From the NCBI GenBank assembly GCA_905235445.1, contig CAJOLJ010000034.1, positions 1 through 64,000 on the forward strand: a stretch of DNA of 64,000 nucleotides, read 5' to 3'. The notes below the pieces were generated by a model. The model ran no database searches, had not been told where the DNA came from, and worked only from the letters and a program-made list of their open reading frames with translations. The stretch is from an uncultured Bacteroidales bacterium (GTDB taxonomy: Bacteria; Bacteroidota; Bacteroidia; Bacteroidales; UBA932). Within the stretch, counting starts at the first letter, position 1; each line of letters opens with the position of its first letter. Positions 2,930 through 48,790 of this stretch are shown piece by piece. The position numbers and the translations under genes were made by a program.

Positions 2930-4423
2930 ATGGCAAGCCTGAAGAACCTGGCGAAGGATACCGCCATATACGGAGTAAGCAGCATAGTCGGGAGGTTCCT
3001 CAATTATCTCCTGGTCCCCCTGTACACCGCTACTTTCACTGCGGCGAGCGGAGGGTACGGAGTCGTCACGAACATGTATGCCTACACGGCACTTCTGTTG
3101 GTCATCCTCACTTTCGGGATGGAGACTACATTCTTCCGCTTCGCGAACAAGGAAGGTGAAGACCCGAAGAAAGTCTTCTCCACGTCCCTCATATCGGTAG
3201 GGGCGGTGGCGGCCCTTTTCGTTGTCCTGGTCTGTGTGTTCCTGGGACCCATAAGTTCGTGGATGGGCTATGCGGACCACGGGTCCTGGGTCATGGTGAT
3301 GGCCATAACCGTTGCGATAGATGCTTTCCAGGCAATCCTGTTCTCATACCTCAGGTACCAGGGCAAGGCAGTGAAGTTCGCATCCCTGAAGCTTGGCTTC
3401 ATAGTCCTCAACATTGCCCTGAACCTTCTGTTCTTCGTAGTGTTCCCCAAAGTCTGGACCCCGGGTAGCGCTCTTTCCAAGGTCTATGACCCCACCATCG
3501 GCGTAGGATATGTATTCTACATAAACGTCTTCTGCACCTCTTTCATGACCCTGTTCTTCGGTAAGGAGATCGCAGGGATAGGGGCGGGACTTGACAGCAG
3601 TCTCCTTCGTAGGATGCTCTCCTATACCTGGCCCATGCTCATCCTGGGTATCGCAGGAATCCTGAACCAGACTGCGGACAAGATCATTTTCCCGAAAGTC
3701 TACAACGGGCCTGACGCCACGGTCCAGCTCGGGATCTACGGTGCGGCAACCAAGATCGCCATGATAATGGCCATGATAACCCAGGCTTTCCGCTATGCCT
3801 ACGAACCCATAGTGTTCGCCTCATCGAGGGACAAGAACTCCCATGAGACCTATGCGGCGGGAATGAAGTATTTCATCATATTCACCCTGCTTGCATTCCT
3901 GGCGGTGATGGCATATCTGGACATCCTCAAGTACCTGCTGCGAAACAGGGACTACTGGGTGGGCCTGAAGGTCGTTCCCATAGTGATGGGAGCTGAGATA
4001 CTGATGGGGATATACTTCAACCTGTCTTTCTGGTACAAGCTCATTGACAAGACCATATGGGGAGCCGTGTTCTCGATAGCGGGATGCGTCGTGCTCATTA
4101 CCTGCAATATAATCTTCGTGCCCCGATTCGGGTACATGGCTTGCGCATGGGCAGGGGTGGCCGGTTACGGTACCGCGATGCTGCTATCCTACATAGTGGG
4201 GCAGAAGAAAAACAGGATAGACTATCCGCTCAAGGACATACTCATCTATACCCTTGTCGCGGCTGTGCTGTTCGTGGGGATCCGACTCTCTTCGACCCAC
4301 CTTGGCTTCTGGGCGTCACTTGCCGTGAACACACTTGCCATCATCCTTTTCATGGCGCTGATAGTCAGGAAGGACCTTCCCCTGTCGTCCCTTCCGGTGG
4401 TGGGGAAGTATTTCAGGAAATAG
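2930..4423 (+). CDS. Oligosaccharide flippase (Wzx/MATE-like polysaccharide biosynthesis protein)
   Basis: 497 aa, about 12-14 TM segments, N-terminus LAKDTAIYGVSSIVGRFLNYLLVPLYT typical of the family. Confidence 0.85.
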   Translation: MASLKNLAKDTAIYGVSSIVGRFLNYLLVPLYTATFTAASGGYGVVTNMYAYTALLLVILTFGMETTFFRFANKEGEDPKKVFSTSLISVGAVAALFVVLVCVFLGPISSWMGYADHGSWVMVMAITVAIDAFQAILFSYLRYQGKAVKFASLKLGFIVLNIALNLLFFVVFPKVWTPGSALSKVYDPTIGVGYVFYINVFCTSFMTLFFGKEIAGIGAGLDSSLLRRMLSYTWPMLILGIAGILNQTADKIIFPKVYNGPDATVQLGIYGAATKIAMIMAMITQAFRYAYEPIVFASSRDKNSHETYAAGMKYFIIFTLLAFLAVMAYLDILKYLLRNRDYWVGLKVVPIVMGAEILMGIYFNLSFWYKLIDKTIWGAVFSIAGCVVLITCNIIFVPRFGYMACAWAGVAGYGTAMLLSYIVGQKKNRIDYPLKDILIYTLVAAVLFVGIRLSSTHLGFWASLAVNTLAIILFMALIVRKDLPLSSLPVVGKYFRK

Positions 4424-47128: not shown

Positions 47129-47136
47129 TAATAATA
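47129..47136. repeat. Target-site-duplication-like repeat, left (TAATAATA)
   Basis: Identical octamer at 48783-48790 outside the other TIR. Confidence 0.65.
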
Positions 47137-47205
47137 CTTAAGTTTCCAATGTGCGTTTTTTTTGCAAAATGCTTGTGCTATTTCCCTTCCTGAATGCAGT
47201 TTTCG

Positions 47206-48465
47206 TCATCTTTGACCTTTGCTATAAGAATTCCCTGCCTCTGTGGGGCGGCGGAAGGTGATGGTTTTTATGTTCACGGAAGCCTTTTCGGTCACCCTAT
47301 TCCCATATATGTCCCTGAGGACGGGGCGCCCGCCTGTGCTTCCGCTTATGAAGGCCTCAATTCCGTTCCACTGTACTGCGTCCAGTCTCTGGAATCTGCT
47401 CCCTCCTATCTTGTGCGGTGCGATGGTGCTGCGGCGACTCCCTCCTTTGCCTGGCTTCATGACGTGGATGGACCAGGTATGGCAGGGGACCTTCCTTGTC
47501 AGGTACACGATGCCACTGGTCGCAGCCAAGGGATTGCCGTCCATGCAGCGGGCGTCCGTGTGGTGCGACTTGGGGAGCGAAGCCCCTATTCTCATGGACT
47601 TGGTATAGTACCCATAGGTTATCCTGACCATGTCGCCCCACTGCTCCCTCAGGCCCCTGTATACATCCCATCTCATCGCATTCATGGATGCGGCGTCCCG
47701 AAGAGGGTGGAAGCTCCTCTTCAGGTTCAGGGAGATCTCCTTTCTGTGGTATCTGCCGTGGCACGTTTCACAGAGGGTCACCAGGTTGTCGGGGCTGTCG
47801 CCCCCGGTCTTCCTTGACTCGATGTGGTGCACGTTCAGTCTCCTGTCGCGGGTTTTGCCGTGGCAGTGCTCTCCCTCGTGCCCATCCCGGCAAAGGACGT
47901 ACTCCCGGGTGTTCCAGAAGCCGAATTGGGGCCCGTGCTGGTAGTCCGTGCCCGTCAGCCCGGGATTCGCCATCCACTGCGTGTCGAACCGGGCGACCTC
48001 GATGGTTATGCTCTTTACCGGCAGGAAGGAGCATACCCTCCTGACCGCGCCCAGGCACTGCACCTTCTGGCGGATGGAGGGGGGAAGCCAGCCTTTCTTC
48101 TTCGACGAGACGCGGTTGTCGAACCGAGGAGGGCGGTACCGAAGGCCTGCCCGCCTTCTTCTCCGAAGCTCCGCCCTCTTGGAGAGCTTGTCCGGGGTGT
48201 CGCTTACCAAGGTCATCTCCTCCTCATACAGGACTTCGCCCTTCGTCTTGGCGCTCATCCCGATGACCTTGCTTCCGGCATCGACGTCCAGACAAACGTC
48301 CTGGCAGTAGTGGGTGGTCTCGTAAAGGAGTTGGACCGTAAACGGCTCGCTTCTTACCACCCTGGCCAGGCCTGAGGCCGGCATGAGCCTCACCTTCCTG
48401 AACCTCTTCGTGGGCATGAGAGGCCTTCCGTCCTTGCCGATAACGAAAACTGATGGACTTTTCAT
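47206..48465 (-). CDS. iscB: IscB-family RNA-guided nuclease (HNH + split RuvC)
   Basis: PLMP domain (SVFVIGKDGRPLMPTKRFRKVRLM), RuvC-I LDVDAGSKVIGMSA, Arg-rich bridge RAELRRRRRAGLRYRPPRFDNR, RuvC-II ITIEVARFD, HNH LNVHHIESRKTGGDSPDNLVTLCETCHGRYH, RuvC-III KSHHTDARCM. Confidence 0.95.
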   Translation of the reverse strand: MKSPSVFVIGKDGRPLMPTKRFRKVRLMPASGLARVVRSEPFTVQLLYETTHYCQDVCLDVDAGSKVIGMSAKTKGEVLYEEEMTLVSDTPDKLSKRAELRRRRRAGLRYRPPRFDNRVSSKKKGWLPPSIRQKVQCLGAVRRVCSFLPVKSITIEVARFDTQWMANPGLTGTDYQHGPQFGFWNTREYVLCRDGHEGEHCHGKTRDRRLNVHHIESRKTGGDSPDNLVTLCETCHGRYHRKEISLNLKRSFHPLRDAASMNAMRWDVYRGLREQWGDMVRITYGYYTKSMRIGASLPKSHHTDARCMDGNPLAATSGIVYLTRKVPCHTWSIHVMKPGKGGSRRSTIAPHKIGGSRFQRLDAVQWNGIEAFISGSTGGRPVLRDIYGNRVTEKASVNIKTITFRRPTEAGNSYSKGQR

Positions 48466-48509
48466 CTTGGTCTTGGGTCAATTGTTTCGTTCGATTGTAC
48501 AATCTGATT

Positions 48510-48747
48510 GTTTTTTGAAGGCCATAGGGCCATAAGTCTGGCATTTCTGCCAGTAGTGCTCCCTTCGAAGTGTTCGAGGGGAGGTTTTACTGGCAGCCGC
48601 ACCGATCCCTTTCGCTCCTTTAACGGCAGTGTGCAGAGCAAGGGATTAGGGAGAACGTCCCTTGGTGCCTATTGTATCTTTCTCCTCCAACGTAGCCCCC
48701 GTGTCCGAACGGGACTTAGGCTAAAGAGCTTCCTGGATGGTTCGGAA
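48510..48747 (-). ncRNA. Probable omegaRNA (HEARO-type RNA) for IscB; boundaries approximate
   Basis: Minus strand upstream of iscB has stems tagcc..cccgttcggacacggg..ggcta (48693-48723), ggagaa/ttctcc (48650-48685), atccctt..gctc/gagc..aagggat (48605-48646), ctgccagta..ctcccctcgaa/ttcgaagggag..tactggcag (48547-48596). Confidence 0.8.
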
Positions 48748-48782
48748 CACCCAATGCCTTATCGGCACTTTGGAAACTTAAG

Positions 48783-48790
48783 TAATAATA
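48783..48790. repeat. Target-site-duplication-like repeat, right (TAATAATA)
   Basis: See 47129-47136. Confidence 0.65.

Follow-up and report, generated by a model that had tools for sequence, protein, structure and literature searches.

Our analysis concerns a 1,646-bp unit in a 64,000-nucleotide stretch of DNA from an uncultured Bacteroidales bacterium (contig CAJOLJ010000034.1, positions 1 to 64,000; called the window below). The unit carries an intact iscB gene and its omegaRNA (HEARO) between terminal inverted repeats (TIRs), and has no transposase gene within it (Table 1), as the preliminary description of the window had stated. The complete iscB open reading frame encodes an RRXRR domain (PF14239; E = 1.2e-49, 169 bits, cut-off 25) and an HNH domain (E = 6.6e-9, 36 bits), and its product matches NCBIfam NF040563 guided_IscB (5.8e-91, 305 bits, cut-off 175) and the solved OgeuIscB chains (6e-33). 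Residues common to two relatives of ~50% identity are kept, the HNH histidines included. Pfam, NCBIfam and solved structures all identify the product as IscB, and the family is clear. IscB is a relative of the Cas9 ancestor, in the lineage from which Cas9 arose.

Table 1. Features of the iscB unit and its flanks, in window coordinates. LE and RE, left and right end of the element.
Feature	Coordinates	Strand	Basis
Apparent left target-site duplication, TAATAATA	47129..47136	.	Identical to 48783-48790; abuts outer side of TIR
Left TIR, CTTAAGTTTCCAATGTGC, 3' side of iscB (RE)	47137..47154	+	17/18 inverted match to 48765-48782
iscB, 419 aa, predicted RNA-guided HNH/RuvC endonuclease	47206..48465	-	PF14239, NF040563, OgeuIscB structure matches
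omegaRNA/HEARO scaffold (predicted)	48553..48781	-	Rfam RF02033, RNA fold, alignment with relatives
omegaRNA guide-adaptor hairpin (predicted), stem AGUUUCC/GGAAGCU, 5' strand from right TIR	48720..48782	-	Folding
Right TIR, CTTAAGTTTCCAAAGTGC, 5' side of omegaRNA (LE)	48765..48782	-	Homology to C5 copy ends at outer edge
Apparent right target-site duplication, TAATAATA	48783..48790	.	Identical to left copy

Relatives of this iscB above ~53% identity were not found in DNA and protein scans. The nearest IscB found is phage-borne (L069:3180-4736, 53% identity) and not flanked by TIRs; its omegaRNA also lacks the canonical adaptor hairpin and is missed by the HEARO model at the curated cut-off. 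Elsewhere in the host genome (G000; 97.7% complete, 190 contigs totalling 3.8 Mb), a 35-bp piece at G000:C32:7455-7489 (L006:1501-1535) is 97% identical to an internal part of iscB (window ~47336-47370) with both flanks unrelated, which suggests a fossil fragment or a trace of recombination.

Ends of the unit

The 19-bp TIRs reported in the preliminary description are present: 47136-47154 (ACTTAAGTTTCCAATGTGC) and the reverse complement of 48765-48783 (ACTTAAGTTTCCAAAGTGC) match at 18 of 19 positions, giving the pattern CTTAAGTTTCCAA.GTGC with a single free position. Scanning the two flanks of iscB for inverted repeats gave a score of 18; the best of their own shuffles reached 9, and the 36 other usable IscB loci, drawn from genomes and viral contigs (one additional locus was too short), gave 7-13, with comparable repeats in 0/36. 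We take the element as C...G, spanning 47137-48782, because two further genomic copies (see below) agree only from the C onward, a T preceding CTTAAG in the copy on contig C72; the TIRs within these limits are 18 bp long and match at 17 positions. Directly outside both C...G ends lies the perfect 8-bp direct repeat TAATAATA, which refines the AATAAT previously noted beyond both ends. From composition, an 8-mer would match at one fixed junction with a probability of ~1.6e-5, a figure below the true chance because TAATAATA is of low complexity and the boundary and length are free by 1-2 bases. Insertion of IS200/IS605 elements occurs without duplication, and the 8-bp repeat at the TIR edges, seen in one copy, speaks against that type.

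The ends also depart from those of canonical Y1-type IscB elements, as had been proposed. In three canonical relatives (L072, L073 and L074, with left boundaries from pairwise alignment at 3233, 1027 and 1575, respectively), each end carries the palindrome CATGACTAAAGTCACG, oriented the same way at both, and an ATGA motif stands just past the RE; the HEARO match begins exactly at the left boundary in L072 and L074, the two that were scanned. In the window unit, end hairpins of this type are absent at both ends, as is the GTCAAY... left end of canonical elements, no ATGA follows the RE, and the RE has no stable fold (-5.8 kcal/mol vs -15.4 in L074). The Y1 transposase family PF01797 had no match in G000, where the family search recovered its positive controls. 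On these sequence features the element would not be of the Y1 type. Canonical IscB elements (L030, L070, L072, L073, L074, L076 and L078) are positioned just before an ATGA(A) downstream of iscB that often resembles a start codon (ATGA..), which suggests that ATGA(A) is a target or target-adjacent motif (TAM) placing them in the 5' leaders of genes.

The omegaRNA and its 5' end

The Rfam RF02033 match runs over the full model from 48553 to 48778 on the minus strand (E = 2.3e-10) and scores 54.1 bits (gathering score 83), six canonical relatives scoring 115-142; divergence from the consensus is greatest in the first hairpin. The region folds with z = -3.0, and the HEARO core (CTACGTT ... GGCAC ... 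CTCTGC ... TTAAA) is conserved in the upstream alignment with relatives. The HEARO start lies inside the right TIR, 1-4 bases from its outer end, and the TIR supplies the 5' strand of the adaptor hairpin (AGUUUCC paired with GGAAGCU), which folds both in the window and in a second copy on contig C5, at -20.3 kcal/mol each. By Rfam match and predicted fold, the omegaRNA scaffold has the right TIR as its 5' end, and the repeat belongs to the RNA. Since the predicted adaptor stem draws on the inverted repeat, iscB would not be merely nested in a miniature inverted-repeat transposable element (MITE); the earlier wording, 'nested in it or as its cargo', understated this integration.

The Y1 transposase recognises the palindromic end hairpin of canonical elements, and the same hairpin doubles as the omegaRNA guide-adaptor. 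Because the guide-adaptor hairpin directly follows the guide in the OgeuIscB structure (PMC9640706), and IS200/IS605 transposition is described as depending on the DNA that encodes the guide-adaptor region of IsrB (PMC9581776), the TIR here takes, by analogy, the functional place of the Y1 end hairpin. The guide would be expected from the DNA directly 5' of the scaffold (48783 upward, minus strand). The joined minus-strand flank, ...TATTATTA followed by CAAGAA, fits the NNRR TAM of OgeuIscB (PMC9640706), but nearer relatives point to ATGA, and we claim no TAM.

Mobility and the search for a transposase

Looking for further copies of the TIRs, as the preliminary description had advised, was productive. 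The second copy, on C5, has a decayed iscB and a deletion that removes the greater part of the omegaRNA 3' half; across its final 152 bp this copy is 85% identical to the window. Homology stops at the outer edge of the right TIR, with an unrelated flank beyond, which confirms the right boundary of the element. A third TIR copy, exact at 18/18, lies in a different context on C72 (G000:C72:10803-10820); with 17 specified positions, its estimated chance in the genome is ~4e-4. Empty sites were also sought: the element is flanked by a nitroreductase gene and a Cys/Met pyridoxal phosphate (PLP)-enzyme gene, and in G246, a genome of the same genus, these two are convergent neighbours ~95 bp apart, with neither element nor iscB between them, but the intergenic DNA is not alignable there, and this is gene-order evidence that does not confirm the exact junction. 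The C5 copy and the element-free gene neighbours in G246 support the view, from sequence comparison, that the unit is mobile.

The C72 TIR opens an AT-richer stretch (G000:C72:10803-12460; L015:8804-10460) with an SLFN/AlbA_2-HATPase gene, and the 8-bp repeat GTTACTGT occurs just before this TIR and again 12 bp upstream of the gene start. The SLFN/AlbA_2 gene, which GTTACTGT flanks, might be the cargo of a complete TIR element, but no right TIR is seen there. Upstream of the AlbA_2 gene lies a sequence of ~84-98 bp (CGGATTTAGGTTGACTCAGAACGAGTCTCTCCC...; L015:10412-10513, also L129, L130, L131 and L132) that recurs at 88-93% identity in G316 and on C125 of G000; the L130 copy adjoins a gene resembling, by eye, Rpn/PD-(D/E)XK nucleases. 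This sequence may mark one end of a mobile cassette with a single gene.

The preliminary description had the unit, as a MITE-like element, mobilised in trans by a DDE transposase. The TIRs, the apparent duplication and the signs of mobility agree with this; the full-length insertion sequence (IS) with matching TIRs and a transposase, for which it had advised a search, did not emerge from the host genome, 400 same-genus genomes or 393 genomes of the order. This is a weak negative, because draft assemblies often lose repeated IS copies. A relaxed TIR pattern gave no convincing pair in the 190-contig draft of the host itself, and no matching TIRs accompany the PF01609 and PF13612 transposases of G000 (the IS1595, IS256, IS66 and ISL3 families were not searched). 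One match to the TIR pattern was found in the same-genus genome G528. Other matches were discarded: those on C63 and C163 are the end of another IS common to both contigs (98 bp, 99% identical, IS66-like by eye only), those on the viral contigs L026 and L027 are coding sequence by eye, and those in two order genomes lie inside aspartate-carbamoyltransferase-like genes and are due to chance.

Interpretation and relation to known systems

The unit is probably a non-autonomous IscB-omegaRNA transposon, whose Y1-type ends have been exchanged for DDE-type TIRs and which moves, or once moved, in trans. As the TIRs and direct repeat imply, a DDE transposase supplied in trans would insert the unit and duplicate 8 bp of target. 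The anatomy suggests that the inserted end would form the first bases of the omegaRNA scaffold, each insertion thus giving a new guide from the flank, and the IscB ribonucleoprotein might then cut alleles without the element, leading to retention or copying. Cutting of element-free alleles has been proposed as a retention route for canonical OMEGA elements and is known behaviour of the family. A broader proposition, which we put forward tentatively and with slightly more doubt than belief, is that an IscB-lineage OMEGA nuclease has switched its transposition partner, that a DDE TIR has become the omegaRNA guide-adaptor hairpin with DDE insertion supplying the guide, and that RNA-guided targeting works with a cut-and-paste, target-duplicating bacterial transposon.

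Several observations weigh against the exchange of ends and the movement in trans, beginning with the missing autonomous partner. Both ends are present in one copy only, and the duplication is a single low-complexity 8-mer; the C5 copy is decayed and its left end is missing, while the C72 homology does not extend past 19 bp. No strain-level empty site was found, the intergenic DNA being unconserved in 250 same-genus genomes. Retention has a weak point of its own: DDE insertion would not follow a TAM-like motif, and a usable TAM may therefore be missing at many insertions.

We regard it as unlikely that this IscB is immobile or a relic, either domesticated or spreading only by RNA-guided homing and host recombination, with the TIRs and duplication as traces of one old transposition. 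One intact and one decayed copy with no transposase would fit such a history, as would the frequent lack of TnpA in HEARO/IscB (PMC9755519) and the lack of a canonical adaptor hairpin in the nearest IscB by identity, that of the phage; the intact iscB and the well-kept TIRs, however, favour recent mobility or selection. A little less likely still is that a Y1-type IscB element inserted into an ordinary TIR element (a MITE), iscB being a mere passenger, which would account for the TIRs and duplication around a transposase-less iscB and for the TIR on C72 with no iscB nearby. In that case, the canonical left end and RE hairpin should persist inside the MITE, whereas neither is present, the HEARO 5' end falls within the TIR itself and the left TIR lies only 51 bp from the iscB stop. 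Least credible is a divergent Y1 (IS200/IS605-like) element with ends complementary by accident and no genuine target duplication: well-studied IscB elements are all attributed to IS200/IS605 (PMC9755519, PMC8987985) and the omegaRNA P1 stem does make a hairpin at the LE, but the RE has no hairpin, the ATGA target motif and any detectable Y1 transposase in the genome are missing, and the 8-bp direct repeat is perfect.

In searches of the open-licence literature, no paper was found whose title and abstract describe IscB with TIRs, target-site duplication or a DDE transposase. If the transposon interpretation is correct, the coupling of 'transposon end' to 'start of guide scaffold' was kept while the transposition chemistry was exchanged. 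This would make it testable how OMEGA nucleases pass from one mobile element to another and whether cut-and-paste transposons, too, are retained with the help of RNA-guided cutting, and it would yield an omegaRNA whose adaptor hairpin is naturally different.

Like the IS200/IS605 ISC/OMEGA/HEARO elements, the unit has an IscB with RRXRR and HNH domains, a HEARO core RNA a short way upstream of iscB, a predicted RNA scaffold that begins at the element end with a guide expected from flanking DNA, and no transposase of its own, which is often missing there too (PMC9755519). It differs in having TIRs and an apparent 8-bp direct duplication where those elements have same-orientation palindromic hairpins and no duplication, and in its other 5' adaptor hairpin and its lack of an ATGA junction motif; its genome has no detectable Y1 transposase. 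With MITEs and other non-autonomous DDE transposons it shares short TIRs, an apparent target duplication, intergenic insertion and the absence of a transposase; unlike them, it carries a functional-looking RNA-guided nuclease, one of its TIRs doubles as part of the predicted guide RNA, and an autonomous partner was not found in the draft, same-genus and order genomes searched. Fanzor and TnpB relatives occur in several types of transposon, both eukaryotic and bacterial, an example of OMEGA nucleases associated with more than one transposase type; those belong to the TnpB lineage, whereas the nuclease here is an IscB.
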